Shown here: one piece after another, positions 17,185 to 47,584 of the stretch
Position numbering within the stretch: the stretch's first letter is position 1
Layout of the letters: every line of letters starts with the position of its first letter
Notes under the pieces: model-generated
Databases searched by the model: none
What the model saw: the letters and a program-made list of their open reading frames with translations, nothing else
Told to the model about the DNA's origin: nothing
Source of the DNA: Nitrospira sp.
GTDB taxonomy: Bacteria > Nitrospirota > Nitrospiria > Nitrospirales > Nitrospiraceae
Assembly: GCA_005116835.1 (NCBI GenBank)
Contig: SWDM01000023.1
Span: 224,519-288,518, forward strand
Direction: 5' to 3'
Length of the DNA stretch: 64,000 bases
Program-made: the position numbers and the translations under genes

Positions 17185-17194
17185 AGGAGACACC

Positions 17195-19744
17195 ATGCTC
17201 GACACCGACACCAAACGCCGCATCGACACCGCTCGCGATATCCTCGTCGGCAAAGTCCCCGACCCGAAATCGCAGGTCGAGCAGATCACGATTGCCCTCA
17301 TCTACAAGTTCATGGACGACATGGACGCGGAAGCCGAGGAACTCGGTGGCAAGCGGAAGTTCTTTACCAAGGAGTTCGCCCGCTACGGCTGGGCCAAGCT
17401 CATGCGCTCCGGCCTAGGCGGGCACGAACTTCTCGGCCTCTACGCCGAAGGCATCACCAAGATGCCTGAGAATCCCGGTGTCCCACCACTTTTCCGCGAC
17501 ATCTTCAAAAACGCTTATCTACCTTACCGCGACCCTGAGACGCTCAAGAGCTTCCTCAAGATCATTGACGAGTTCACCTACGACCATAGTGAGCGCCTTG
17601 GTGATGCCTTCGAGTATCTGCTTTCTGTCCTCGGCTCGCAGGGCGACGCCGGGCAGTTCCGCACCCCACGCCACATCATTGATTTCATCGTTGCGGTTAT
17701 CGATCCTAAGAAGAAAGAAACCATTCTCGACCCTGCCTGTGGCACCGCCGGTTTTCTCATTTCTTCCTATAAGCACATCCTGCGCGCCAATACCGACAGC
17801 AAGGGCAACAGTAGATTGACGCCGGATGAAAAGGGTCGCCTTGCCAAGAACATTAAGGGCTACGACATCTCGCCAGACATGGTGCGCCTCTCCCTGGTGA
17901 ACCTCTATCTGCACGGCTTCACCGATCCCCACATCTACGAGTACGATGCCCTTACTTCAGAGGAGCGCTGGAACGAACACGCTGATGTCATCCTCGCCAA
18001 TCCGCCCTTCATGTCTCCAAAGGGCGGAATCAAACCCCACAAGCGCTTTTCCATCCAAGCCAAGCGCAGCGAAGTGCTGTTCGTGGACTACATGGCTGAG
18101 CACCTTACGCCCACCGGCCGCGCCGGCATCATCGTGCCCGAGGGCATCATCTTCCAAAGTCAGACTGCCTACAAAGAACTGCGAAAGTTGCTGGTGGAAA
18201 ACTCTCTCGTCGCCGTCATTTCGCTCCCGGCAGGCGTGTTCAATCCCTACTCCGGTGTCAAAACCTGCATCCTAATACTCGACAGATCCCTCGCCAAGCA
18301 AAGCGAAAGCATTGGATTCTTCAAAATCGAAAATGACGGCTTCGGCCTTGGAGCCCAACGCCGCGCGATGGAGAAAAACGACCTACCTCAGGTCAAAGCC
18401 GAACTCTACGCCTACCTCCAGGCCCTCCGCAGCCAACAACCTACCGATAATCTCCAACCAACCTGCGGGCTGATTGTGCCGAAAGAAAAGATTGCCGCGA
18501 ATGGCGAATACAATCTCAGTGGCGAGCGGTATCGGGAGGGTGGTGCCAAGACGAACATCTTTCCGTTGGTGCGAATCAACGAGGTCTGCACAGTGAATCC
18601 TCGGAAGAGCCAACTCACGGAGAAGCCTGACACGCATGTCTCGTTCGTTCCAATGGCTGACCTAAACGAGCATCGCATCGCGTTTCAACCGAGCGAGGAG
18701 AAGGCACTTTCCGAAGTCGGAGCGAGCTACACCTACTTTGAGGACAACGATGTCCTGCTCGCCAAGGTCACGCCGTGCTTTGAAAACGGCAAAGCCGGCA
18801 TCGCTCGCGGACTTCTTAACGGAATCGGTTTTGGTTCCAGCGAGTTCTACGTGCTCCGTAGCAATGGCCAAGTCCTGCCCGAGTGGGTTTATTTCTGCGT
18901 CATGCATCCGCTCTTCCGGGAGGCCGCTGTCGCGCAGATGACCGGCACGGGCGGGTTGCAACGCGTTCCCCGCGATTACGTCGAGAACTTCCAAATCCCC
19001 CTGCCGCCACTAGAGGTGCAGAAGGAGATCGTGGCGGAGATCGAGGGCTACCAGAAAGTCATCAACGGCGCCCGCGCCGTTCTCGACAACTACCGACCCC
19101 ACATCCCCATCCACCCCGACTGGCCGATGGTGGAGTTGGGCGAAATCTGTATATTCAAGAGAGGGCCGTTTGGAGGCAGCTTAAAGAAGGACATTTTTGT
19201 GAAGAAAGGCTATGTGGTCTATGAACAGAGCCACGCAATAGCCAACGATTTCTCAGAATACAGGTATTTTATCGACCAAGAAAAGTTCGAAGAAATGCGT
19301 GGCTTTAGAGTACAACCCGGCGAAATCATCATGAGTTGTTCTGGCACGATGGGTAAGGTAGCCATCATCCCAGCGAACGCGCCATCTGGCATTATCAACC
19401 AAGCCTTGTTGAAGCTGACTCCGACCGATCGAGTCTTGGGCGTATTTCTGAAGCTTTGGATGGAGAGCGACAATTTCCAGCATAGCCTCTCCGACTTCAC
19501 TTATGGCGCAGCAATCAAGAATGTCGCGTCGGTGGAAATATTGAAGGGACTGCGACTTCCCCTCCCGCCCCTCGCCACCCAGCAAGCCATCGTCGCCGAG
19601 ATCGAAGCCGAGCAAGCGCTGGTCGCCGCCAACCGCGAGCTGATCGCTCGCTTCGAGCAAAAGATTCAAGCCACCCTCTCCCGCATCTGGGGAGAAGATG
19701 CGCCATCAGAGCATGTGACAGACTATGAGCACGAGGCGTCATAA
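17195..19744 (+). CDS. hsdMS: Fused type I R-M methyltransferase-specificity protein (HsdM-HsdS)
   Basis: 849 aa; AAGGAGA lies 4-5 nt before the ATG. Residues 1-~430 are an N6-adenine methylase: HsdM N-terminal helices, SAM motif DPACGTAGF (179-187) and catalytic NPPF (269-272). Residues ~450-849 are two target-recognition domains of HsdS type, each ending in a conserved spacer helix (IPLPPLEVQKEIVAEIEGYQ and LPLPPLATQQAIVAEIEAEQ). M and S are normally separate proteins; here a single chain carries both. Together with hsdR this makes a complete restriction-modification system. Confidence 0.92.
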   Translation: MLDTDTKRRIDTARDILVGKVPDPKSQVEQITIALIYKFMDDMDAEAEELGGKRKFFTKEFARYGWAKLMRSGLGGHELLGLYAEGITKMPENPGVPPLFRDIFKNAYLPYRDPETLKSFLKIIDEFTYDHSERLGDAFEYLLSVLGSQGDAGQFRTPRHIIDFIVAVIDPKKKETILDPACGTAGFLISSYKHILRANTDSKGNSRLTPDEKGRLAKNIKGYDISPDMVRLSLVNLYLHGFTDPHIYEYDALTSEERWNEHADVILANPPFMSPKGGIKPHKRFSIQAKRSEVLFVDYMAEHLTPTGRAGIIVPEGIIFQSQTAYKELRKLLVENSLVAVISLPAGVFNPYSGVKTCILILDRSLAKQSESIGFFKIENDGFGLGAQRRAMEKNDLPQVKAELYAYLQALRSQQPTDNLQPTCGLIVPKEKIAANGEYNLSGERYREGGAKTNIFPLVRINEVCTVNPRKSQLTEKPDTHVSFVPMADLNEHRIAFQPSEEKALSEVGASYTYFEDNDVLLAKVTPCFENGKAGIARGLLNGIGFGSSEFYVLRSNGQVLPEWVYFCVMHPLFREAAVAQMTGTGGLQRVPRDYVENFQIPLPPLEVQKEIVAEIEGYQKVINGARAVLDNYRPHIPIHPDWPMVELGEICIFKRGPFGGSLKKDIFVKKGYVVYEQSHAIANDFSEYRYFIDQEKFEEMRGFRVQPGEIIMSCSGTMGKVAIIPANAPSGIINQALLKLTPTDRVLGVFLKLWMESDNFQHSLSDFTYGAAIKNVASVEILKGLRLPLPPLATQQAIVAEIEAEQALVAANRELIARFEQKIQATLSRIWGEDAPSEHVTDYEHEAS

Positions 19745-34783: not shown

Positions 34784-37189
34784 ATGAACCTTTTCGAGCA
34801 GAGTACGGTGGTGCTGGAGTGGCCCAGACTGCTGGAGGCCCTTGCTGGACACGCCCGATCGACGATGGGAGCGGCGCGCTGTCGCACCCTCGAATTGGCG
34901 ACCAGCCTCCACGATTCGCAACAGCGCCAGCAAGAAACGACAGAGATGGCCGAGTTGCAAACATTAGGCGACGCGCTGCAGGCCTTGGCCTTTCCCGACA
35001 TTTGCCACCCACTTGCACGGGCGAAGAAAGGGGCGGCCTTGGAGGCCCCTGAACTTCGGGATTGTGCCGTCGTGTTGGAATTGCTGGAGGAGAGCAGCCG
35101 ATTCATGAGCCGGCATCAGCAGGACGCCCCTGCCCTGGCCGCTGCCGCGCAGCCGCTGCAATCTATCGGGGAACTGCGACCTGTGAAAGCCGCTCTGGAT
35201 GCGGCGATCCATTCGGATGGCTCGATCAAGGAGTCGGCAACGCCGGAGTTACGGCGCCTGACTCATCAGGCCCATGCATTCAAACAACAGATGCGCGATC
35301 AAGTAAATCACATGTTGCACTCGCGCCGCTATGAGGAGGTTCTCCAAGAGCAGTATTTCGCCCAGCGGGAAGGTCGGTATGTCATCCCTGTGAAAGCCGA
35401 TATGCGGGGACGTGTTTCCGGGATCGTCCATGACATCTCAGCCAGCGGGGCCACGGTATTTATCGAGCCGCGTGAGCTGGTTGAATTGAACAATTCGATC
35501 AAAGTGGCGGATCTGGAGATTGAACGGGAAGTCCGGCGCATCCTCAGTGAGTTATCTTCTCTCGTCGGAGCACAGTCTGAGATCATTCTGGCGGGGCTTG
35601 ACGCGTTGGCCGTGCTTGACGGTATTTCGGCGCGGGCATCGTTTGGCCGTCAATTGAAGGCGCATCCAGTCGAGCTCAATGCAGACGGGCGAGTGAAACT
35701 GTTGCAGGCCAGGCACCCGTTGCTCGTATTGTCGAAAGAACAGGTTGTTGCCAACGATATTCTTCTGGATGAGTCGATCCAGGTGCTGGTCATCTCAGGC
35801 CCCAATACTGGTGGAAAGACTGTGACCCTCAAGATCGTCGGGCTCTTTGCCTTAATGGTTCGGGCAGGGCTGCACCTTCCCTGCGACGCGGAATCAGAGA
35901 TGGCAATCTTTCCCGACGTCTATGCCGATATCGGAGATGCTCAAGATTTGGCCCGCGACCTCTCCAGTTTTTCCGCACACATGACCCAGATAATCCAGTT
36001 GCTCGACGAAACAGAATGTCTACGTAACAGCGGCGAATATGGCAGTCCACGGAAATCGTTGGTTCTCCTCGATGAACCGGTGACCTCGACCGATCCAACG
36101 GAAGGAGCGGCTCTAGCAGAGGCCTTGCTCTGTCGGCTGGCCACGCTGGGGATGAAAGTCATCGCGACCACACACTACGGATCGTTAAAGGCCTTGGCCC
36201 ACACGATGCCGGGCTTCGCAAACGCCGCAGTCGAATTTGACGTGGCGACTCTGTCGCCAACCTACCGGCTTTTCATGGGGGTGCCAGGGGGATCGTCGGC
36301 GCTTGAGATTGCCGGTCGGCTGGGGATGGACCGGGCTTTAATCGATGAGGCGAGGTCGAAGCTTCATAAAGACGAGCGGGTCATGGAAACCATGCTCCAC
36401 GATTTGCAAGCTACGCAGCGTCAGTTAGCCGACGATCTGGCCAGGGCTGTCGAAGCCAGGCGTGAAGCGGAACGGGCCGAACAACAAGCAAAGGCACAGC
36501 TGGCTCAGCTGGAAGAGACGGAACGGGAAGCACAGAAGGGCCTTAAACGAAAACTCAGCGAGCAGTTCAGCCGAGCGCGGGCGGAAGTGCAAGCGACGGT
36601 AGATACGGTCAAGGGCGAACAGAAGTTGATCAAGGCCAAAGCAGCGAAACAGCGGTTATTTGAGCTCGAAGCGCAGACGAAAGCCAAGCTGGCCCCAGTC
36701 GGCACGCCCATTCCCCTTGATCAGTTGGGCGTGGGGGATCAGGTCGAGATCAGCGGACTCGGTATGACCGGCACGTTACTCGAAATGCCGCAAGGGAAGA
36801 AACGAGTGAGGGTGAAGGTGGGGCAGGGGGAACTGCTGGCTACAGTGGCAAATCTTGTCGGTCTTGGGCGAGGGAAGGTAGCGCCGTCGTCGCCAGTACC
36901 CTCGAACTCTCGCCTGGTTTCGCCAGGTGGGGGGCTGGGTCTGGATGAACAAACGGTCGTAGATGTCCGAGGGAAGGCGGCGGACGAGGCGTTGGACCAA
37001 GTGGTTGCGGCGTTGGATCGTGCCACCATGGCTGGTACGCCATTCCTCCGCATCATCCATGGCCACGGCACGGGGAAGCTCAAAGCATCGCTGCGAGACT
37101 ACTTGAAAGACTCGCCCTATGTGGCAGAGTTCCGTGTGGGAGATCGGGCAGAAGGCGGCGATGGTGTGACGATTGTGAAGTTGGGCTAG
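34784..37189 (+). CDS. mutS2: MutS2 family ATPase/endonuclease
   Basis: 801 aa. The MutS core and lever region come first (no mismatch-recognition domain I), then the ABC-type ATPase with Walker A GPNTGGKT near residue 340 and LVLLDEPVTSTDPTEGAALA. A long charged coiled coil (~520-640) and a C-terminal Smr nuclease domain (VDVRGKAADEALDQV...LRIIHGHGTGKLKASL) follow. MutS2 acts in recombination suppression or in rescue of collided ribosomes, depending on the species; the sequence alone does not distinguish these. Confidence 0.95.
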   Translation: MNLFEQSTVVLEWPRLLEALAGHARSTMGAARCRTLELATSLHDSQQRQQETTEMAELQTLGDALQALAFPDICHPLARAKKGAALEAPELRDCAVVLELLEESSRFMSRHQQDAPALAAAAQPLQSIGELRPVKAALDAAIHSDGSIKESATPELRRLTHQAHAFKQQMRDQVNHMLHSRRYEEVLQEQYFAQREGRYVIPVKADMRGRVSGIVHDISASGATVFIEPRELVELNNSIKVADLEIEREVRRILSELSSLVGAQSEIILAGLDALAVLDGISARASFGRQLKAHPVELNADGRVKLLQARHPLLVLSKEQVVANDILLDESIQVLVISGPNTGGKTVTLKIVGLFALMVRAGLHLPCDAESEMAIFPDVYADIGDAQDLARDLSSFSAHMTQIIQLLDETECLRNSGEYGSPRKSLVLLDEPVTSTDPTEGAALAEALLCRLATLGMKVIATTHYGSLKALAHTMPGFANAAVEFDVATLSPTYRLFMGVPGGSSALEIAGRLGMDRALIDEARSKLHKDERVMETMLHDLQATQRQLADDLARAVEARREAERAEQQAKAQLAQLEETEREAQKGLKRKLSEQFSRARAEVQATVDTVKGEQKLIKAKAAKQRLFELEAQTKAKLAPVGTPIPLDQLGVGDQVEISGLGMTGTLLEMPQGKKRVRVKVGQGELLATVANLVGLGRGKVAPSSPVPSNSRLVSPGGGLGLDEQTVVDVRGKAADEALDQVVAALDRATMAGTPFLRIIHGHGTGKLKASLRDYLKDSPYVAEFRVGDRAEGGDGVTIVKLG

Positions 37190-37202
37190 GGGGTAACCAG
37201 AT

Positions 37203-37345
37203 GTCCTTCTTGCTCGCGGAACAGAGGAGGGGATGGAGGCTGATGATCTTCTGTGCTCGCGCAACGCGCGGCCTCAGAAGGCCCTCGTTGGACGCGCGCA
37301 GTGGAAGATCAATCAGCCCCCATCCCTGAAGAGGCAACGAGCGAG
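37203..37345. repeat. Dispersed GCTCG/CGCGC palindromic repeat, copy b
   Basis: Contains TTGCTCGCGGAACAGAGGAG, TGTGCTCGCGCAACGCGCGG, TCGTTGGACGCGCGCAGTGG and a TCAATCAGCC/GGCTGATGAT bracket. The same blocks occur in copies near 11214 and 49020. It fills most of the gap between mutS2 and the small gene at 37493. No coding potential. Confidence 0.65.
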
Positions 37346-37492
37346 CTTGGATGGAGCATATATATCGTTCGATGCCCGTAGTGAACGACAATCTAGCCGC
37401 TGCCTTGAAAGGAGGTAAAGAAAATTAGAAGGCCTCGCATGGGCTGATGCACGTCATGGGGAATCGATTGCGAAGCAGTCGGAAGATTATGT

Positions 37493-37669
37493 CTATTCTC
37501 TTCTATTGAGGCGCGTCATCATAGTACCTAAGCCCAATACGATAGCCAAAAAAACCAGAATTATAGCCGTTAACGAGCCGAGCACGCAGGAAAAACTCTC
37601 GTTGCAGAAATCAAACATATATTGCCAAAACCCCCACATTTTGGTCTGAGCCAGGGTTTTTACAAACAT
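37493..37669 (-). CDS. Small single-pass membrane protein, 58 aa
   Basis: Starts at ATG 37669 (or the adjacent ATG 37672) with GAGG just upstream. The N-terminal half is aromatic and amphipathic (MWGFWQYMFDFCNESF), followed by one TM helix, GSLTAIILVFLAIVLGLGTM, and a basic end (MTRLNRRE). No family is recognised. The good ribosome-binding site, clear TM helix and positively charged cytoplasmic end support a real gene. Confidence 0.6.
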   Translation of the reverse strand: MFVKTLAQTKMWGFWQYMFDFCNESFSCVLGSLTAIILVFLAIVLGLGTMMTRLNRRE

Positions 37670-37718
37670 CATATCCTCATCTTGGCACGTCTCTTCGAGA
37701 CTAGGGGATAGAAGCCAA

Positions 37719-38369
37719 CTAGGCCAGCGATTCGACCGCGACGCGTAACCGCTCGGTCAGCTTCGTCGCCGCGACCGGTTCTTCCGGAGCGCGCGAGACT
37801 TCGATTGGCTCTCCGATGATGATGCGCAACCGCGGGAACCCGATTCTGCCCCGCGAGAGGGCCTGTGCTGTGCCGACGAGGCGGACCGGCACAAGTGACG
37901 CGCCTGTCATGAGCGCCAGGCGCGCGGCACCCCGGTGCCACACACGGTCGCCGCAGACGGCGCCTTGGGGGAAGATCGCGACTGCCTGTCCTGCATCGAG
38001 CGCCTGCCGCATCCGTGCCAGAGCAAAATGGTCACCGTGCCCACGCTTAATTCCGACTGCGCCGAGCCCGTCGAGCACCCACGCCAGCAGTCGGGACCGC
38101 CAGAGTTCTGCCTTTACGAGGAAACGCAGTTCCCGCGAGATTGCCGCCCCTAGGACGATTCCATCGAGCCACGAGTCATGATTCGGTGCGATGACTACAG
38201 GCCCGGTGACGGGGAGGCGATTTGCGCCGACCACCTCGAGTCGATACATGGCTCGTACCAAGCCGCCGAAGAAACAGCGGACTTGGGCATAGGTTGGAGC
38301 AGGGAACGGTAGAAGACTTGGATTTTCATTTGCCCGACGGTCGGCAAGAGCGTCTATCAATGATTCCAT
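37719..38369 (-). CDS. plsC: 1-acyl-sn-glycerol-3-phosphate acyltransferase (PlsC family)
   Basis: 216 aa. The acyltransferase HX4D motif is NHDSWLDG near residue 63; FPQGAVCGD near 134 replaces the usual FPEGTRS, and VPVRLVGTAQAL corresponds to the later P-containing block. Transfers an acyl chain to lysophosphatidate at the inner membrane to form phosphatidate. The Gln in place of Glu in block III is atypical and could alter substrate choice. Confidence 0.85.
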   Translation of the reverse strand: MESLIDALADRRANENPSLLPFPAPTYAQVRCFFGGLVRAMYRLEVVGANRLPVTGPVVIAPNHDSWLDGIVLGAAISRELRFLVKAELWRSRLLAWVLDGLGAVGIKRGHGDHFALARMRQALDAGQAVAIFPQGAVCGDRVWHRGAARLALMTGASLVPVRLVGTAQALSRGRIGFPRLRIIIGEPIEVSRAPEEPVAATKLTERLRVAVESLA

Positions 38370-38509
38370 CGGACTTCCTCCTCGTTCCTAACTGCTACGT
38401 TCGATCGCAGCAGTCGGCCATTTGGTCGTCTTGTTTCGGCACATTGCTCTCTAGCGACCTTGCGCATAGAGAGCTGGGTTGTAGCTGCCGCGTAGGGTTA
38501 GGCATTAAC

Positions 38510-38749
38510 TCAGTTTTGTTTCTCTCGTTTCAACGCTCTCCAAGCATAGAAAAACCCAATCGGCGCGCTGATGATGCAAATAATCGCCAGAAGAGACGAT
38601 TCTGCGGCGAGCCACCCTCCAAGAGCGGTATAGATAGATGATCCGAGGAAATAGACATACCAGGGAATCCTGCGCTTTTTTTTCGAAGACGCGTCGGTTT
38701 GCGATGTCATTACGCTCAGGCCTGCAGATTTTAGAAATTGTACAGACAT
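38510..38749 (-). CDS. Small two-helix membrane protein of unknown function
   Basis: 79 aa from the ATG with GGGAGG upstream; an internal ATG at 38710 would give 66 aa. A charged N-terminal segment (SSKKKRRIPWYV) leads into TM1 (YFLGSSIYTALGGWLAA) and TM2 (LLAIICIISAPIGFFYAW), ending in KREKQN. No family is recognised. The next gene upstream encodes a periplasmic protein anchored by a C-terminal TM helix; the two may be co-transcribed. Confidence 0.6.
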   Translation of the reverse strand: MSVQFLKSAGLSVMTSQTDASSKKKRRIPWYVYFLGSSIYTALGGWLAAESSLLAIICIISAPIGFFYAWRALKREKQN

Positions 38750-38810
38750 TGTCAGGGCCCTCCCTCTGGAATTGTGAACTATCTGGTCGTGGATCGGAAC
38801 ATCTGGCTTC

Positions 38811-39392
38811 CTACGAACGGAGGACCGCCCACCAATTCCGCAGCCATCTCGATCGCACGAGCTTGTATCCGAGCCAGGCACAGAGCAGCACGCCGAGCAA
38901 TGGTACAACCGCAACATTCACCAACTTTTGATAATCGGTCATCTGTACTCGCAAGAGATACTGGTAGCGGGAAGGATTCCGCCCCTCCGCGGTAATGATG
39001 ACTCTGTACAGGCCCTCATCTAGATTGGTTTCGCCACTGATTACTCCGGCCGGGTGACGGCTCGGACGCCAGTCTGCTACCGTCTGGGCTCCTGCCTCAT
39101 TCCTCCCGTTTCCCTTCACGATCTGCAGACCCACCGGCACGTTACGCAATGCCGGGTCCACGAGGTCCACGACAAGGAATGTCTCGCCTGTCTTGGGAAT
39201 GTCCGTGCAGTATTGAGCTTTCAACTCGTATTGCGGCTGATAGGAACTCAAATGCACCGCGCTCTCACCGACCCAGCGCACGCAAGGGTCTACTTCCAAC
39301 TCCGCTCCTTCATGTGCAACGGCTGCGCCGGGGTACAGTGCGGCAACAAGTAGGAGCACGATAAAACTTACTCGCGTCATTTGTTTATTCAT
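38811..39392 (-). CDS. Exported protein with C-terminal membrane anchor, unknown function
   Basis: 193 aa. A signal peptide (RVSFIVLLLVAALYPGAAVA, cleavage before HEGAELE) is followed by a ~130-residue periplasmic beta-rich domain with two cysteines and a C-terminal TM helix (VNVAVVPLLGVLLCAWLGYKLV) ending in a basic tail. No catalytic motif or family is recognised. The periplasmic domain faces the same compartment as the ammonia monooxygenase soluble regions, but that link is only positional. Confidence 0.7.
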   Translation of the reverse strand: MNKQMTRVSFIVLLLVAALYPGAAVAHEGAELEVDPCVRWVGESAVHLSSYQPQYELKAQYCTDIPKTGETFLVVDLVDPALRNVPVGLQIVKGNGRNEAGAQTVADWRPSRHPAGVISGETNLDEGLYRVIITAEGRNPSRYQYLLRVQMTDYQKLVNVAVVPLLGVLLCAWLGYKLVRSRWLRNWWAVLRS

Positions 39393-39617
39393 GGCTAACC
39401 TCTCTGTTTTGAGGTCTTGCTAACCTCTGGTCTATGTTGCCATCCTCATCACTGCCGACGGCCCCTTCTTTCACTCTGGTCGTCGGTTCTGCGACTCACT
39501 GAGGAGACAGGCCCCTCCGGGGTGCAGAGAGGAGCCTATCTACCTCAGCGGGAGACGCCAGGCAGAGTCGCGGCGCCACCAATTCTCCATACATAGAGCG
39601 TGCATGACGAAGTGTCC

Positions 39618-39812
39618 TTACACGGTTGTCAACGCCGAGTGAGATGCCACTGGTCGCGACGTAAGTCGTCTATGTGCCGCAATGACGGGATCGACAATTT
39701 CCCCACAGTTGATACAACGCCATCCGGCATACTCATAGTCATTCGGTCCGAGTGCTCCAAGATCTTCAAACTTCTCACGCACCATCAATCCTTCACAGCG
39801 TGTGCACCTCAT
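39618..39812 (-). CDS. Small zinc-ribbon protein
   Basis: 64 aa. Two CxxC knuckles (MRCTRCEGLM and CINCGEIVDP) are 29 residues apart and flank a WR-containing strand (YEYAGWRCINCG), the pattern of a treble-clef or rubredoxin-like zinc ribbon. Homologous small proteins are common in Nitrospira-like genomes, with no known role. It lies ~100 nt downstream of ftsH on the same strand. Confidence 0.75.
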   Translation of the reverse strand: MRCTRCEGLMVREKFEDLGALGPNDYEYAGWRCINCGEIVDPVIAAHRRLTSRPVASHSALTTV

Positions 39813-39914
39813 CGCATGCCTCCTTCCTTGATGGGGTCTTGCTCAGATACTTCGGACCTTTCCCACTGGTCTTTCTGTTAGAATTTTGAGCATCTGCATA
39901 TGTGCGTTCGCGCC

Positions 39915-41735
39915 TCAGTGATTGTCCATGATGGCTCTAAGCTCACTGCCGGTGATCACCTCACGATCGAGCAGGGCTTTTGCTCCTTCTACGAGTGCGT
40001 GCTTCTTTTCAGCTAAGAGCCATCTCACGCGATCGTATTGCTCGTCGATGATGCGGCGCACTTCGCAGTCGATCTCGCGGGCGGTCTCCTCCGAATAGTC
40101 GCCTTTCTCCTGAGGCGCTTGAATCTGCATGATGAGAGGCTGGCGTTCACGATCAAGGGTAACAGTGCCCAGCTTCTCGCTCATCCCGTAGGACTTGATC
40201 ATGCTTTTGGCAATATCTGTGGCCCTGACCAGGTCGTTCTGCGCTCCGGTAGACGCTTCGCCGAAGATCAATTCTTCCGCATTTCGCCCTCCGAGTAAGA
40301 CGGCAATCTTGTTTTCCAACTCCGTCTTGGCCATCAGGAATCGATCCTCGGTCGGGAGCTGAAGGGTATAGCCCAACGCGGCAACGCCGCGAGGGATGAT
40401 CGAGATCTTCTGAATCGGGTCTGCTCCCGGAAACGACAGCGCTACCAAGGCGTGGCCTACTTCATGGTAAGCGACGCGTTCTTTCTCCATCTTGTTGAGA
40501 ACCCGGTTTTTCTTCTCCAATCCGGCGACAACCCGCTCCACCGCTTCTTGCAATTCCGAGTGACCCACGTGTTCCTTATTCCGACGCACAGTTAAAAGTG
40601 TGGCTTCATTGATGATATTCGCGAGGTCGGCGCCTGAGAACCCGGGGGTCATCGCGGCGATCATCTCAAGGTCTGCATCGAGCCCCAGGGTCACCTGTTT
40701 GGCATGGACGCGCAAGATAGCCAGGCGGCCGATCTTATCCGGGCGATCGACCAAGACTTGCCTGTCGAACCGGCCTGGCCGCAACAGTGCAGGATCCAAG
40801 ATTTCAGGCCGATTGGTCGCCGCCATCAGGATAACGGCGATGCGGGGATCGAAGCCGTCCATCTCGACCAGCAACTGATTCAGGGTCTGTTCACGCTCCT
40901 CATGCGCCATGGGTCCCGCCCCACGGGCTTTTCCCAATGCATCCAGTTCGTCGATGAAGATAATACAGGGCGCCTTGATCTTCGCCTGCTCGAACAGATC
41001 TCGCACGCGGGAGGCCCCCACTCCCACAAACATTTCCACAAACTCGGACCCGCTGATGCTGAAAAACGTCACGCCTGCCTCTCCTGCCACAGCGCGAGCC
41101 AGGAGCGTCTTGCCGGTTCCAGGAGGACCGACGAGTAAGATCCCTTTCGGAATCTTTCCTCCTAGACGCGTGAACTTTTCCGGTGTCTTCAGAAACTCGA
41201 TCACTTCGCGCAGTTCTTCCTTCGCCTCGTCCACACCGGCCACGTCCGCGAAGGTGACCTTCGTGTCCTTCTCGGCATAGATCTTCGCCTTCGACTTCCC
41301 CACGGTCATGAACCCTTTTTGACCCTGTCCAAGCCCCTGACCGAGGCGCCGAATCACAAAAAACCAGATACCGCCAAAGATCAGCGCAGGAATGACCCAC
41401 CACATAATGTCTCGCAAGAACGTACTCTCAATCATGCCGGTGAACTTGACGTTGCGTACATTGAGTTCCTTGACTAAATCAGGATCTTCAACCCGGACAG
41501 TCGTAAACAGCTTCGGTTCTTTTGATCCTTCTTCCGGCTTCAGTTTCCCGAGCAATGACTGACGAGTGACCGTGACTTCCGCCACGTTCCCGGCCGCCAG
41601 GAGCGTCTTGAATTCGCTATACGGAAGCTCTTCAAGCATCTGCATGGGCGTGATGAAATTGTGCACGAACATGACTGCCCCAATCGTGAGAAAGGCACAC
41701 AGGACCGAAAAGGAGATTTTTTTATTCACTGGCAT
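39915..41735 (-). CDS. ftsH: ATP-dependent zinc metalloprotease FtsH
   Basis: 606 aa. TM1 (8-26) and TM2 (~111-128) flank a small periplasmic domain ([11 protein letters not shown]). The AAA+ module has Walker A GPPGTGKT (203-210), Walker [10 protein letters not shown] and the [22 protein letters not shown]. The protease domain carries the zinc site HEVGH (424-428). It degrades misassembled membrane proteins and selected regulators. The C-terminal tail is short. Two 26- to 38-aa membrane peptides and a STAS protein are encoded just upstream, an unusual setting that suggests a specialised FtsH copy. Confidence 0.95.
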
Positions 41736-41906
41736 CGCGATGAGTTCCTTTCTCTGTCACGACTTAAAGAAGAGCGAAGGATTCTGACCTGTCGTGCTTT
41801 CTTAGGCTCCTTGCTGAAGAGCTGAGAGACAGAAATCCGTCGGATAATTATGGACATTCGCAACACCGTCGCATTCAGTTTTAATCGGTACTCGCTATCC
41901 CAACGG

Positions 41907-41987
41907 CTAAGGTTGGAAGTAACCAGTTGCAAGTACCAGACACATCAAAATCACGGCACCAAGAATAATGAAAATGACGCCCTTCAT
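41907..41987 (-). CDS. 26-aa membrane micropeptide, downstream copy
   Basis: ATG at 41987 with GAGGAG 8 nt upstream. Encodes a peptide beginning MKGVIFIILGAVILMCLV and ending in FQP-stop: essentially one TM helix with a single Lys at the N-terminus. It is nearly identical to the peptide encoded at 42036-42152; conservation of the amino acids, separate ribosome-binding sites and silent or conservative changes (for example GTACTT against GCACTG) indicate that both are translated genes. No family is known to me. Confidence 0.7.
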   Translation of the reverse strand: MKGVIFIILGAVILMCLVLATGYFQP

Positions 41988-42035
41988 GGTGTGAACTCCT
42001 CGTTGAAAAACTATAGATGGCATTAGCATTCGGCC

Positions 42036-42152
42036 TTAGGGCCTGAGGAGGCCCGTTGCCAGTGCCAGGCACATCACAAGCACGGCACCAAGAATAATGA
42101 AAATGACGCCCTTCATGGAGTCATCTTTTTTTTGAAGAGTAGTATTTGCCAT
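42036..42152 (-). CDS. 38-aa membrane micropeptide, upstream copy
   Basis: ATG at 42152 behind a strong GGAGG with 8-nt spacing. A 12-residue polar leader (MANTTLQKKDDS) precedes the same membrane segment as the downstream copy, MKGVIFIILGAVLVMCLA, and the peptide ends in LLRP. An internal ATG at 42116 corresponds to the start of the 26-aa copy. The tandem pair lies between the STAS gene and ftsH on the same strand. Possible roles are modulators or substrates of FtsH, or stress-related membrane peptides. Confidence 0.7.
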   Translation of the reverse strand: MANTTLQKKDDSMKGVIFIILGAVLVMCLALATGLLRP

Positions 42153-42204
42153 TGGAATTCCCTCCTTTTATATGTGCTGCTGTGGTTGTCTGAACTGCAT
42201 CGCC

Positions 42205-42471
42205 TTATCCTTCTCTGCCCTTCTCACGGCTCATCCACTCCCGTATGTACGGCCAGCAATTGAGGAGCTGGACACCGTTTTTTTCACAGGCGTTCAGAAA
42301 ACGAATGATCTCGACATCCACGAGCGTCACTCCGTTGAGGTCCAGTGCAACCCGCGACCGAGCGCCTTCCAATTGCGTCTTCAATTCCTCCAGATGCTTC
42401 GCTTGCAACCGACCGCTTAGACAAATCATCGTCTTGAGGCGGCGGGTTTCTTTTTCAAATTTTATTGTCAT
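42205..42471 (-). CDS. STAS-domain protein
   Basis: 88 aa from MTIKFEKETRRLKTMICLSGRL; a longer frame upstream is not homologous. The fold is anti-sigma-factor-antagonist like: strand, helix (KHLEELKTQLEG), strand VALDLNGVTLVDVEIIRFLNACEKNG. The Ser/Thr phosphorylated in SpoIIAA-type proteins (D-S/T-G/S) is replaced by LVDVE, so regulation by phosphorylation is doubtful. It likely mediates protein-protein signalling in the gene group that includes the sigma-54 activator next to it. Confidence 0.75.
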   Translation of the reverse strand: MTIKFEKETRRLKTMICLSGRLQAKHLEELKTQLEGARSRVALDLNGVTLVDVEIIRFLNACEKNGVQLLNCWPYIREWMSREKGREG

Positions 42472-42751
42472 CTGTGACCTCTCAACCTGGACGATATAAA
42501 AATAGTGCAATGAAGAGGCCAGCTATAAACCATTGAAATGTTTGTGTTTTGCGTGTAGATGCCTGCCGAAGTTTCAGCATTTGCTGAATGATCGGCAAAA
42601 GAGGCAGGAGTATCCGGTGAAATTTCAATTCTCGGTCGGATTGCGTGGAGGATAGTGAGCGGGTGCGGGGTCAGGAGAGTCGTCTAAAACACAAGCAATG
42701 ATTCACGAGAGGCCGGTTTTCGCAGATGGCGCCCAAACAACTTTTGGCTTT

Positions 42752-44761
42752 TTATCGTGCGTAGTCGGCTTGGCGAGTCTTGAAGCGATGCTTGTTAATT
42801 CCCAGGGCCGTGATTTTCGACTCAAGCGTCTGCCTCGGGAGTCCGAGCTTGGCAGCGGCGCCGGTTGGGCCCGCGACCTGGCCCCCGCAATCCGCCAACG
42901 CCGCTTCAATGATGTCCTTTTCATGCTCGGCCAGCGTGGCGCCTAGGGGAATTACCGACCCCGACAGTCTGTGCTTTTCCCGTTTCAACCATGTCTCGTC
43001 GACGGAAAATGTTTCGCTCTCGCACAGCACGATCGCTCGCTGGATGACGTTCTGCAGCTCGCGAATGTTGCCGGGCCAGTCGTAGGCCTGAAACAACTCC
43101 AAGGTCTCTTTCTGTATATTTTTGATTTTTTTCCCGGCCTTCTTCGCATAGCGTTCAATCAGGTAGGTGACGAGTAACGGGATGTCGTCCATCCGTTCGC
43201 GTAACGGGGGGACCTGGATTGGGAAGACATTCAGCCTGTAAAAGAGATCCTGGCGAAATGTGCCTGCCGCCATGGCTGCCTTCAGATCGCGATTCGTAGC
43301 GGCCAACACGCGCACGTCAACGGAAATCGATTGGCTGCCGCCGACCCGTTCAATTTCCCCCTCTTGCAGGACTCTCAGGAGAGCGATTTGGGTCTCGGCA
43401 GGCAGATCTCCGATCTCATCAAGGAAGATCGTCCCGCCATCGGCCAGTTCAAATCGCCCTAAACGCCGTTGTATCGCCCCCGTAAACGCGCCTTTCTCAT
43501 GTCCGAACAGCTCAGAGGCAATGAGCGAAGCTGGGATCGCCGCACAATTGACGGTAATGAATGCCCGGGACGACCGCTTCGAGCGCTTGTGAATGGCCCG
43601 TGCGATCAGCTCCTTGCCCGTCCCGGTCTCACCCAGCACGAGTACCGTGGAATCTGACGGCGCCACTTTGGTGACTTGCGTCAATATGTTGCGGATGACG
43701 TCCGACGAGCCGACGATTTCTTCAAACATCGAAGACTGATCGATCTCTTCGCGCAACGCCAAGTTTTCTTTTTGAGTTCTCTCTTCCGCCCGTTTGCGAT
43801 CGTCGATGTCGGTCCCTGTCGCGTACCAGCGAATGATCCGTCCTTCTTCGTCCTGCAAGGGGTTATAGCGGATCAGAAGCCACCGATATTGCCCATCCTT
43901 CCGGCGAGCACGTAGCTCCAATTCAAATGGGGTTTCGCGTTCGAGCGCATGCTGGCGCTCGTTCTGTGATCTCTCGATATCATCAGCGTGAAAAAATCGT
44001 GCGCGAAAGTCATCTGCCATGACATCTTCCAAGCTCAGACCGCTGTAGTCGAGCACAAATCGATTCGCATAGAGAGTTTTCCCATCGGGTCCCAGGACAC
44101 AAATGAGTTGAGCGATCGCGTCGGTGATGCGTCGCAGTTCCCGTTCATCTTGGCGGAGCTTCTCCTCCCTATGCTTATGCTCAATAGCAACCGTCGCCAG
44201 ATGCGTGATCTGTCCGATGAGGTGTTGATGGTACGCACTAGGGCTACCAGGTTCGCGCGAGTAAATCGCGAAGGTGCCCAATACTGTGTCGTCGGATGAC
44301 AATATTGGAGTGGACCAACAAGCCCGCAGTCCATGGGCCATGGCCAGTGCGCGCCATTCGTACGTGTCCCATCGCGCGTCCGACGCAACATCGGCGGCAA
44401 TCACTTGCTCTTTGAGACTTGCCGCCATGGCGCAGGGACCCGAGAGGAGATTCACGGGTCTGCCATGGATCGATTCGTTATAGCTGAGAGGAAGGCTGGG
44501 AGCCGCACCGTGCTTTAGTCGATTGCTGATAGGATCGACCAGTACGATTCCACAGAGAGATCCGCTCGCGATATCTTCGATGAGTCGGCATAAGGCATCA
44601 AGGAATTCTGAGAGCGTACATCCGGTGGCGAGCATCTCGAGAAGGCGATTTTCTCCGGCAAGCAATGTCTCGGCCCACTTACAGTCTTCGATATCGGAAT
44701 GAGAGAGGCCATCGGGCGTGGCCGACCGCTGAGTGGTTTCATTGTGAAGGTTGGGTTTCAT
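42752..44761 (-). CDS. Sigma-54-dependent activator with GAF and PAS domains
   Basis: 669 aa. A GAF domain (~45-195, CGIVLVDP...GTFAIYSREP) and a PAS/PAC pair (~205-325) precede the AAA+ module: Walker A GETGTGKE (377-384), sigma-54 contact loop GAFTGA (424-429), Walker B GGTIFLDEIGDLP. A C-terminal Fis-type HTH (LGLPRQTLESKITALGI) closes the protein. The GAF-PAS input suggests sensing of a small molecule or redox state. It is transcribed away from amoC; the intergenic DNA contains a sigma-54-like promoter facing amoC, so amoC is the likely target. Confidence 0.92.
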   Translation of the reverse strand: MKPNLHNETTQRSATPDGLSHSDIEDCKWAETLLAGENRLLEMLATGCTLSEFLDALCRLIEDIASGSLCGIVLVDPISNRLKHGAAPSLPLSYNESIHGRPVNLLSGPCAMAASLKEQVIAADVASDARWDTYEWRALAMAHGLRACWSTPILSSDDTVLGTFAIYSREPGSPSAYHQHLIGQITHLATVAIEHKHREEKLRQDERELRRITDAIAQLICVLGPDGKTLYANRFVLDYSGLSLEDVMADDFRARFFHADDIERSQNERQHALERETPFELELRARRKDGQYRWLLIRYNPLQDEEGRIIRWYATGTDIDDRKRAEERTQKENLALREEIDQSSMFEEIVGSSDVIRNILTQVTKVAPSDSTVLVLGETGTGKELIARAIHKRSKRSSRAFITVNCAAIPASLIASELFGHEKGAFTGAIQRRLGRFELADGGTIFLDEIGDLPAETQIALLRVLQEGEIERVGGSQSISVDVRVLAATNRDLKAAMAAGTFRQDLFYRLNVFPIQVPPLRERMDDIPLLVTYLIERYAKKAGKKIKNIQKETLELFQAYDWPGNIRELQNVIQRAIVLCESETFSVDETWLKREKHRLSGSVIPLGATLAEHEKDIIEAALADCGGQVAGPTGAAAKLGLPRQTLESKITALGINKHRFKTRQADYAR

Positions 44762-45368
44762 ATGTCCTCTCCCAAATAGAGGCAGGTTACGTCAAAACCA
44801 ACAAGGAAGAATATTCTGCTGACCATCGTCTAGCTGGCGAAAGGGCGAACTCTCTATCGTTTCGTCATTGCCCGACGCCTATCCTCCTGGCGAATCTGCA
44901 ACGGAAGCTTTTCCGCTCGCGCACCTCACTCCGCCGACGGAGGCGGAAGTGCCTAGATCATATCACCATAAGTGCATAATACTCCCGTTAGTCACCAAAA
45001 ATCACTAGCCTTCCATGGTGACCAACAGGTGCCGTATGCCTTTATCTTGCGTCATGCATCGGCACATAGAATCAGAACGGCTGTCACATCACGTTCTGGT
45101 CCTTCATCCTCCATGTCAATCAGCCTTATATAAAGAGATTACCTTCAGTCCAAAACTCAGGAGTTCGGTGTCTCTCGCACTTCTTAGCCTGGTTTCTCAT
45201 CCAGCCCCTGTGAATGGTTCGGCGAAAGCTGATTTTTCGGCATCATGCTGTAATCTCGGCAAACAGCCTCAGCACTTCATTGATTTCACTGCAGAGATTC
45301 CCGAGTGAAAATGCTCATTCTATTGAAGTTTCAGCACCGTCGATGACGAATTCACGCGGACGCTCTGC
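44762..45368. promoter_or_regulatory. Long divergent intergenic region between sigma-54 activator and amoC
   Basis: About 600 bp without a convincing gene, markedly richer in A/T than the flanking coding DNA. It must hold the promoter of the activator gene and could hold upstream activator sites for the sigma-54 promoter at 45369. I could not identify a clear enhancer palindrome. Short forward frames here (for example 45015-45308) have no ribosome-binding site or family resemblance. Confidence 0.5.
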
Positions 45369-45384
45369 TGGAATGCGAGTTGCG
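45369..45384 (+). promoter_or_regulatory. Candidate sigma-54 (-24/-12) promoter for amoC
   Basis: The sequence TGGAATGCGAGTTGCG matches the sigma-54 consensus TGGCACG-N4-TTGCW at 9 of 12 defined positions, including the invariant GG (45370-45371) and GC (45382-45383) at the required 10-nt spacing. Transcription would begin near 45395, about 50 nt before the leader ORF and 135 nt before amoC. The adjacent divergent gene encodes a sigma-54 activator, which makes the match more credible. Confidence 0.55.
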
Positions 45385-45446
45385 TATGAACAGCATCAGG
45401 AAATGCCAAATGCATCTGTGGATCAGATAGGAAGGAGGAAATTGAA

Positions 45447-45554
45447 ATGGCAGGCAACATATTTCGCAGGGGTTTTCACAACCATCCCACAGGGGTGGTT
45501 CTCAAGAGCATGAAGGGAGGGTCAGAACATGGCAAAAGCAACTACATTCGGTGA
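45447..45554 (+). CDS. Possible leader ORF overlapping the amoC start
   Basis: 35 codons, ATG at 45447 with AGGAGG 8 nt upstream, a better ribosome-binding site than many genes here. It ends at a TGA (45552-45554), 26 nt inside amoC in another frame. The peptide (begins [18 protein letters not shown]) has no known family and no TM helix. It could couple or attenuate amoC translation. It might also be a remnant of the original amoC 5' end. Confidence 0.45.
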
Positions 45555-46329
45555 GAGCGACCTCGGGTATGACATGTCGCTCTGGTACGACTCCAAGCCC
45601 CTCAAGATCGGCTGGTTCACCATGTTAGCCGCGGTGGGATCCGAGGTCGTGTTCCAGCGTGTCTTCGGCTTCTCCCACGGCTTGGACTCCATGACGCCGG
45701 AATTCGAAAATGTCTGGATGAACCTCTGGCGTTTTAACGTGATTGCCAATATCATCTTCGCAGCCGCGGTCTTGGGGTGGATTTGGACTACGCGGGATCG
45801 CAACGTGGCCAACGTGGATCCCAAAACGGAACTCAAACGGTATTTTTATTGGATGGGGTGGCTCGCGGTGTACGTCTTCGGCGTGTACTGGGCAGGGAGC
45901 TTTACTCTTGAGCAGGATGCGTCGTGGCACCAGGTGATCATCCGCGATACGAGCTTCACCTCCAGCCATATCATCGCCTTCTACTTCACCTTCCCTCTCT
46001 ACATCACATGTGGCCAGGCGGTTTACCTGTATGCCAGGACCCGGTTGCCGCAGTTCAGCAAGGGCATCTCGTTCCCCTTGGTGGGAGCGATCGTCGGGCC
46101 GATGATGATTCTGCCCAATGTGGGACTCAACGAGTGGGGGCATGCGTTCTGGTTCGTCGATGAACTCTTCGCGGCGCCGTTGCACTGGGGCTTCGTGACC
46201 CTGGGATGGTGCGGACTATTCGGCGGGACGGGGGGCGTGGCAGCGCAGATCGTGGCCCGCATGTCCAACCTGTCTGATGTGATCTGGAACAACGAGAGCA
46301 AAGACTGTTTGAAGGTGATCCCGTACTGA
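45529..46329 (+). CDS. amoC: Ammonia monooxygenase subunit C, stand-alone copy
   Basis: 266 aa, full length for AmoC, with GGGAGGG upstream. Integral membrane subunit of the copper enzyme that oxidises ammonia to hydroxylamine. TM helices are visible at about residues 27-47, 66-88, 105-124, 145-168, 180-196 and 215-237. The AmoC/PmoC copper ligands are conserved with exact spacing: D130, H134 and H147 (DASWH ... SSH). amoA and amoB are not adjacent; in front is a long regulatory region and behind a strong terminator, so it is a monocistronic extra copy. Orphan amoC genes are known in ammonia oxidisers and in Nitrosomonas are linked to stress recovery. Confidence 0.95.
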
Positions 46330-46346
46330 GACGTGTCAATGGGCTA

Positions 46347-46393
46347 GCCCCGCGTTCTCGATGCAGAAGCGCGGGGCCGGCCAACTGGCCGGC
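46347..46393 (+). terminator. Tandem GC-rich hairpins after amoC
   Basis: Two stem-loops follow the amoC stop: GCCCCGCG paired with CGCGGGGC (46347-46354 / 46370-46377), and GCCGGCC paired with GGCCGGC (46376-46382 / 46387-46393). No T-run follows either, so they may stabilise the amoC mRNA 3' end rather than stop transcription. Confidence 0.55.
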
Positions 46394-46427
46394 TAGAATA
46401 GAGAAAGTTTCAGCGCTTTCAGTGTCA

Positions 46428-46470
46428 AACACGGGCGACCTCCTCGGTAGGAGGTCGCCCGTGTTGTTTC
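46428..46470. terminator. Rho-independent terminator after amoC
   Basis: A perfect 17-bp stem, AACACGGGCGACCTCCT paired with AGGAGGTCGCCCGTGTT, with loop CGGT, is followed by a T-rich tail (TTGTTTC). It would end the amoC transcript about 100 nt after its stop codon and isolate it from the esterase gene. Confidence 0.88.
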
Positions 46471-46597
46471 GGTCGTGAACGAGTCCGAGGTTTTTGGTAC
46501 ATTCTCATTTCCCGGCCCATTCTAGACATATACCCATACGGAAGAGTTTCAATCCTTTCCCTAATTCTCTCGCAGTGAACGATACGAGGTGAAACCG

Positions 46598-47584
46598 ATG
46601 AACGAGTCGCTCTTAATGATCTTCAGGGTGCTGACAGTCCTTTCGGTCGCCCTGTTAATGGTTGGGATTCTAAAGCCGGAATGGATACGCTTCGGACAAA
46701 AGCAGCCCGGTCGTCCAACGATCATTGCCGTCGCAGTAACCCTATTCGTCATCGGCCTTTCCGGCGCTGGTGCGATTCAACCTGCTGGAAAGAACGGTGC
46801 CGAAGCTGTGAAGCAGGGCACAGCACTGAGTGAGACTGTGTATACAGTCGACAAAGATACGCAACAGTGCGAATCAGGAACACGATCTGGTAGCGCCGGT
46901 CCCTCCGATGACGAGCAGACCACGGCAGGTATCCGTTACATGGTGAAAGCGCCGGCTAACTACAATGCAACCATCGCCCATCCGTTGTTGATGGTCTATG
47001 CGCCGGCGCGAACGAATCGCTATGAGTCGGAAAAATTCGTGTTTCTCACACCAGAAGCCACGGCGGCAGGTTTTGTTGTGGCCTATGCCGATCACCGCAG
47101 GATAACGCCGAAAGCAATTGAGGAGCTGGCTGAAATACCGGGGCTGGTTGAACAGAAATGGTGTATCGATAAGAAGCGGATTTTTCTCACCGGCCATTCC
47201 GATGGCGGAACTACTGCCATGGCCATTGCGTTTCTCAATGGCACCAAACATATTCCAGCGGGGATTGCCCCTAGTGCTGCTGGTATCAGGGGTGAGGACT
47301 TGAAGGCCTATCAATGTCCACCCCCCGTTCCCGTGATGCTCTTGCATAGCAGTCAGGACACCCTGTTCCCAGGTTATGGGAAAGAGGCGATACAATGGTG
47401 GGCTGTCTGCAATGGTTGCGATGCGACCCCCCCTGTTAAAGATGCAAACGGTTGTGTAACGTATAGGGGGTGCAAGAACAACGTCATCACACGTTACTGT
47501 GAAGGCACGGGGCCACATACCACATGGCCTGGGAGCAATAAGGCGATCATCGATTTTTTCAAGAGCGGCCAAGAGGCCCGTTAA
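46598..47584 (+). CDS. Alpha/beta-hydrolase, PHB-depolymerase/feruloyl-esterase-like, membrane anchored
   Basis: 328 aa from the ATG with GAGG upstream. Two TM segments (~4-22 and ~38-57) precede an esterase domain with the nucleophile elbow GHSDGG near residue 197, a late VPVMLLHSSQDTLFPG (Asp candidate) and GPHTTWPG (His candidate). Several cysteines (CNGC, NGCVTYRGCKNN) suggest disulfides in the periplasm. The class hydrolyses esters of short hydroxy acids or aromatic acids; the natural substrate cannot be deduced. Confidence 0.75.
   Translation: MNESLLMIFRVLTVLSVALLMVGILKPEWIRFGQKQPGRPTIIAVAVTLFVIGLSGAGAIQPAGKNGAEAVKQGTALSETVYTVDKDTQQCESGTRSGSAGPSDDEQTTAGIRYMVKAPANYNATIAHPLLMVYAPARTNRYESEKFVFLTPEATAAGFVVAYADHRRITPKAIEELAEIPGLVEQKWCIDKKRIFLTGHSDGGTTAMAIAFLNGTKHIPAGIAPSAAGIRGEDLKAYQCPPPVPVMLLHSSQDTLFPGYGKEAIQWWAVCNGCDATPPVKDANGCVTYRGCKNNVITRYCEGTGPHTTWPGSNKAIIDFFKSGQEAR

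Follow-up and report, generated by a model that had tools for sequence, protein, structure and literature searches.

Predicted single-helix microproteins of a sigma-54-regulated operon on an AMO satellite island in comammox Nitrospira

Introduction

SpoVM, at 26 amino acids, is a small membrane peptide linked to FtsH. A second FtsH-linked small membrane peptide, MgtR, has also been described (PMC6813294). In archaea, AmoX, AmoY and AmoZ are small helical subunits of ammonia monooxygenase (AMO); AmoY (9.6 kDa) and AmoZ (12.8 kDa) are described as unique to archaea in the available part of that account (PMC10030591). Genes associated with AMO can also stand apart from its operon: Nitrosomonas has a stand-alone stress amoC (amoC3) that is linked to sigma-32 (PMC6311188), and the copper proteins PmoD, AmoD and AmoE occur near lone pmoC genes (PMC6189053).

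Here we describe a locus in a 64-kb stretch of Nitrospira DNA (hereafter the window) that resembles each of these systems in part. It encodes two tandem microproteins, P1 and P2, that are like SpoVM and MgtR in length and hydrophobicity, and FtsH belongs to their operon in part of the lineage; however, their linkage to FtsH is facultative and their genome profile follows amoC, and the likeness is one of general description. They resemble AmoX, AmoY and AmoZ in being small membrane proteins of largely helical character with genes that, in some genomes, are linked to those of AMO, but they are bacterial, 26–38 residues long, island-borne and facultative; this comparison is one of described features. 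As with amoC3, a non-operonal amoC is found in a regulated setting; here, in contrast, it is the adjoining operon that is under sigma-54 control, amoC lacks a site of this kind, and the setting also includes microproteins, FtsH and an AmoE-like protein. Titles and the opening parts of abstracts on comammox, amoC, AmoD/AmoE and FtsH contained no account of the island or its microproteins, which suggests that both are absent from print.

Two tandem genes encode a conserved predicted helix

An earlier note on this DNA had reported two near-identical small frames, each with its own ribosome-binding site, between a STAS gene and ftsH, and our analysis confirms this arrangement (Table 1). Both frames are on the minus strand, with STAS upstream and ftsH downstream; AAAAGGAGGGAATTCCA is the ribosome-binding-site sequence 5′ of P1 and CGAGGAGTTCACACC that 5′ of P2. 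The two cores share 82% of their DNA and 20 of 26 residues, and the degenerate codon pattern of the shared helix has two exact matches in the window and none in 100 shuffles. The 26-residue size given for the second copy also holds: a start at 42023 would yield a 38-residue homologue beginning MPSIVFQRGVHT, but we prefer the shorter form because this upstream start is missing from copy 2 of two other genomes (G015 and G016). Mean hydropathy over the best 19 residues is 2.76 for P1 and 2.90 for P2. Using an alignment of 18 of the 19 distinct peptide sequences (copy 2 of G017/G031 was omitted), AlphaFold2 predicts one helix spanning residues 3–32, with a mean pLDDT of 77 overall and of 92 for residues 21–30. 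A single transmembrane helix in the predicted peptide is supported by structure prediction, by hydropathy and by the selection described below. Searches of Pfam and NCBIfam returned no family for either peptide, and a scan for sigma-70 promoters and terminators gave a result not above chance.

Table 1. Features of the locus, in window coordinates
Feature	Position	Strand	Remarks
AMO satellite island, approximate extent	37379..46561		flanks adjoin in G014; block absent at this site also in G009 and G021
PlsC-like acyltransferase	37719..38369	-	at 10/14 loci
Small hydrophobic membrane protein	38510..38746	-	hydrophobic segments by eye; 14/14 loci
AmoE/PmoD-like exported copper-protein homologue	38811..39392	-	PDB 6cpd (PmoD), E 2e-8
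Small zinc-ribbon-like protein	39618..39812	-	weak Pfam matches only; many paralogues
Third FtsH copy (M41 protease)	39915..41735	-	between peptide and zinc ribbon in 7/14 loci
P2 (microprotein 2)	41907..41987	-	26 aa, helix core only; MKGVIFIILGAVILMCLVLATGYFQP
P1 (microprotein 1)	42036..42152	-	38 aa, one predicted helix; MANTTLQKKDDSMKGVIFIILGAVLVMCLALATGLLRP
STAS-domain protein	42205..42471	-	88 aa; first operon gene; PF13466 E 1.1e-5, below gathering score
Sigma-54-type promoter	42506..42521	-	TGGCCTCTTCATTGCA; same register at all 14 loci
34-bp palindrome	42564..42597		TGCCGAAGTTTCAGCATTTGCTGAATGATCGGCA; likely upstream activating sequence
GAF-PAS-AAA-Fis sigma-54 activator	42752..44761	-	PF00158 E 1.7e-72; PF13185; PF08447; PF02954
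Stand-alone amoC, divergent	45529..46329	+	PF04896 E 5.1e-105

At E<=5e-11, a protein search placed homologues of the peptide in 14 of the 32 same-genus genomes. When the same search was read to E<=1 it reached 17 genomes, but the three weak matches (G013, G022 and G028, E 0.157–0.652) were discarded as chance, lying in long open frames, and the site in G013, when read, held no peptide gene. A profile search of 175 genomes of the family returned the same 14 genomes and one chance-level match (G106, E 0.005), discarded likewise as a long open frame; none of the other 143 genomes was positive. The sister genus g16, some of whose genomes have amoCAB, yielded no peptide. Scanning GTDB contigs for the pattern gave 12 loci, all in MAGs of Nitrospira, Nitrospirae or Nitrospiraceae, among them RCB (Rifle clade B), palsa_1310 and CG24A, C and E. 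CG24E belongs to clade B of comammox according to a 2018 review, whose available part gives that clade no cultured member as of its date (PMC6311188). As judged from these searches, the peptides are conserved within one group of comammox Nitrospira, and their standing as a lineage-specific family of predicted single-helix inner-membrane microproteins is well supported.

The total is 22 copies, since two are present in eight of the 14 genomes. The earlier note had named a lack of homologues and broken frames as signs against its proposal; homologues exist, and every one of the 22 frames is intact. At single-copy loci the gene starts like P1 and ends like P2, which suggests that these genes arose by recombination fusing tandem copies.

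Elsewhere, two loci (L075:10135-10260 and L081:10149-10274, both on the plus strand) hold a different single-helix frame of 41 residues, MDLIILVIMALVT..WWASAARWRT..., preceded by a ribosome-binding site and located after another stand-alone amoC. Relatives of this frame at E<=0.01 occur in 27 of the 175 family genomes, including amoC-negative ones, and the weakest of them are probably chance.

Selection preserves the peptide rather than the RNA

Copies so alike in DNA could also be an untranslated element, either an RNA that is conserved or a repeat that is decaying. That the helix is under purifying selection argues otherwise. In the omega tests, the free model served for tree fitting and a kappa grid for omega 1, so the 2dlnL values are approximate. 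The 26-codon core gives an omega of 0.36 over all copies (2dlnL 19.8 against omega 1) and 0.30 for P1 (17.9); the STAS gene gives 0.26. For P2 alone the estimate is 0.52 and omega 1 is not significantly rejected (2dlnL 2.74), and the 12-codon N-terminal extension of P1 is drifting (1.13, 2dlnL 0.12). Substitution counting agrees with this picture. Because the P1 core and STAS have the same synonymous divergence (pS 0.273 and 0.272), selection works at the protein level; together with the omega pattern, this indicates that what is conserved is a peptide that forms a helix, not an RNA. Given a core omega far below 1 that rises to about 1 immediately beyond the core, the unbroken frames and the STAS-like synonymous rate, we consider an untranslated element highly improbable. 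Gene conversion as the process keeping P1 and P2 alike is unsupported, since pS within genomes (0.32–0.45) exceeds that of STAS (0.27).

The operon has a conserved sigma-54-type promoter and a nearby activator gene

Upstream of the operon, a TGG-N10-GCA element lies 50–51 bases 5′ of the STAS start codon at all 14 loci. The palindrome beyond it is conserved in the alignment of all 14, with an inner dyad, CAGCAAATGCTG, that is exact in 12, and the window's own genome has just one strong copy of it. The gene for the activator, or its remnant, adjoins STAS at 12 of the 14 loci. There is thus a -24/-12 site with GG and GC 10 bases apart and an AAA activator nearby, and sigma-54 regulation of the peptide operon is well supported by these conserved elements. 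The earlier note had suggested that the peptides might be stress peptides tied to the adjoining sigma-54/amoC module. Sigma-54 control shared with amoC is an idea that we reject: upstream of amoC there is neither a -24/-12-like site nor the palindrome, and amoC is intact at few of the loci (below). Because the conserved sites are at STAS, the palindrome has a single strong copy and amoC has none, the GAF-PAS activator seems to be dedicated to the peptide operon as its only target.

Short, very hydrophobic, duplicated and placed behind a regulated sigma-54 promoter, the peptides have several traits of membrane-active stress peptides of the type I toxin kind, which would depolarise the membrane under stress. 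Their genes, however, have a conserved mid-operon position and their own ribosome-binding sites, Rfam gave no match over the 64-kb window at the gathering threshold and so no antitoxin RNA was recognised, and the peptide tracks AMO genes; a toxin is to our minds distinctly improbable.

Neighbouring genes and the stand-alone amoC

We counted synteny over the 14 peptide-bearing genomes, several of whose contigs are short. The STAS gene has the distribution of the peptide (14 of 32 genomes) and is present at all 14 loci. The zinc-ribbon-like gene is at 12 loci, with none found in G017, and has paralogues in all 32 genomes. The AmoE/PmoD-like gene lies downstream of the peptide at every locus, and its product belongs with that family by homology to 6cpd, by CxnC at 14/14 loci and by N- and C-terminal hydrophobic stretches judged by eye. 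Its closeness to a lone amoC recalls what is described for PmoD, AmoD and AmoE near lone pmoC genes, but the window protein has A in place of the methionine of the CuA motif Cx7MxHxnC, M being kept only at the G003, G016 and G019 loci among the 14. In the sister genus, members of this family stand in threes before copC, copD and amoCAB (copC, copD, amoA and amoB named by eye), the arrangement published for comammox amoE/amoD (PMC4863621). The window's own genome also carries, on C8 (L074:5509-9447), a second set of sigma-54 activator, zinc ribbon and AmoE-like genes without a peptide, and L082 in G019 resembles this set.

Further downstream are the small membrane protein, for which no family scored above cut-off, and an acyltransferase that we take from its sequence to be PlsC-like. 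Either of these, or a transporter controlled by STAS, might engage the helices in some other membrane process of the island. The presence of STAS and the small membrane protein at all loci and of the PlsC-like gene at most would fit such a partnership, but all three may equally be island bystanders and no transporter was recognised within the island, and we regard this explanation as unlikely.

The physical linkage of the peptides to amoC that had been noted earlier is borne out by the divergent stand-alone amoC in the same island. Beside the activator, amoC is intact at 3 of the 14 loci (G000, G010 and G017). In G002, G004 and G008 only pieces or remnants of it are left, in G016 the contig ends within it, and G005 lacks it; at the remaining loci, contigs end before the amoC site or other genes lie upstream.

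The island is absent as a unit and the peptide tracks amoC

In G009, G014 and G021, which are amoC-positive and peptide-free, mutS2 is followed by the counterpart of the gene beside amoC in the window (46589-47584), and the entire block from PlsC to amoC is absent from this site. In G014, homology stops on the left near window position 37378 and restarts on the right near 46562; these breakpoints give an island of about 9.2 kb. G006 bears a deletion scar in which an AmoE-like gene lies beside a stretch encoding the activator's N-terminal 100 residues, along with a broken amoC. In two further peptide-free, amoC-positive genomes (G018 and G023), the search with mutS2 matched nothing there. Next to the island edge, a repeat at 37178-37363 has several matches near the empty sites of G009 and G014; it is perhaps a dispersed repeat with a part in mobilising the island. 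Outside the island, at 14650-19744, the window contains a type I restriction-modification-like pair, a helicase/nuclease followed by a methylase fused to a specificity part (identified by eye).

Members of the amoC family are present in 19 of the 32 genomes, or in 20 if the amoC fragment at the G016 locus is counted. On the latter count the peptide occurs in 14 of 20 amoC-positive and 0 of 12 amoC-negative genomes (Fisher p 1e-4, confounded by common descent); on the strict count the figures are 13/19 and 1/13 (p 9e-4). A small AMO subunit would be expected in AMO genomes only, and on the wider count, with the same confounding by shared descent, the peptide is so confined. Such a subunit would also be expected in nearly all of them, but 6 of the 20 amoC-positive genomes of the genus are without the peptide, as is g16. 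Because of these six, either ammonia oxidation does not require the peptide or the genomes in question are incomplete.

FtsH is a facultative neighbour

The earlier note had suggested that the peptides might be FtsH regulators or substrates. In this explanation, the helices would bind FtsH within the membrane and inhibit it, adapt substrates to it or be its substrates, in the manner of SpoVM or MgtR. An FtsH gene in the same operon, downstream of the peptide, is found in G000, G002, G004, G008, G015, G017 and G031, and G003, G015 and G019 have a different FtsH upstream, complete or partial, so that some FtsH is near at 9 of the 14 loci. Two peptide copies and a downstream FtsH co-occur, 7/7 against 1/7 (p 0.005, uncorrected for descent), and this counts for FtsH and against the AMO proposal made below. 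However, a peptide of the SpoVM/MgtR type would be expected to keep a constant association with FtsH, and half of the loci have none adjoining while five have none nearby (G005, G010, G011, G012 and G016, some of whose contigs are short); ftsH as a constant partner is therefore rejected by synteny. The helix is retained where no FtsH is linked. With the FtsH of the window, its genome has three M41 genes; identity to the paralogue on C10 is 85% and to that on C11 50%. All 32 genomes have M41 proteases. Because the peptide tracks amoC while M41 is universal in the genus, an AMO-related role is favoured over a general FtsH role, with the proviso that the genomes share descent. These observations weaken the FtsH reading, and we now hold it to be somewhat unlikely, although direct modulation of FtsH is the chief alternative to the proposal below.

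A tree of concatenated AmoE and STAS is poorly supported, and the separate trees conflict on G015; this conflict suggests recombination within the locus. In G002 (L027:9817-12504), the locus FtsH is followed by the C-terminal half of a second FtsH in one open frame of 903 residues.

A possible role in AMO assembly or turnover

The peptides probably help to build or recycle the AMO membrane machinery rather than merely controlling a neighbouring protease. More specifically, we tentatively propose that they are sigma-54-induced microproteins of an AMO satellite island that act as helix partners in the assembly or turnover of AMO or AmoC, a plausible reading in which the biochemical target is what we infer. 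In this proposal, the operon (STAS, P1, P2, in some genomes FtsH, then zinc ribbon, AmoE/PmoD-like protein and further genes) is served by its own GAF-PAS activator, which would sense a stress or nutrient signal and thereby cause STAS, the helices and the AmoE-like protein to be produced together. The helices would pack on a membrane partner of AMO biogenesis, most likely AmoC or an AMO/AmoE assembly, and this packing would help the partner to assemble, to remain stable or to be turned over. In one sub-lineage the operon may have recruited an additional FtsH, which would remove replaced or damaged subunits. Counted against this proposal are the persistence of the peptide where the amoC of the locus has decayed (G002, G004 and G008) or is missing (G005), the lack of a sigma-54 site at amoC and the six amoC-positive genomes that are peptide-free.

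A related but rather improbable reading is that the peptides are inducible extra helices of an alternative AMO, joining a sub-complex of the singleton AmoC and the AmoE-like protein while FtsH clears the normal subunits, so that AMO would be remodelled under stress or under copper or ammonia limitation. If this were true, the extra small AMO subunits known from archaea would have a counterpart in bacteria.

The assembly, repair and regulation of AMO are a long-standing open question. This compact, regulated island combines one amoC standing alone with an AmoE-like protein, two microproteins and, in some genomes, a dedicated FtsH. It provides a short list of candidate factors for AMO assembly or turnover, and its defined promoter could be used to monitor the island in metatranscriptomes.
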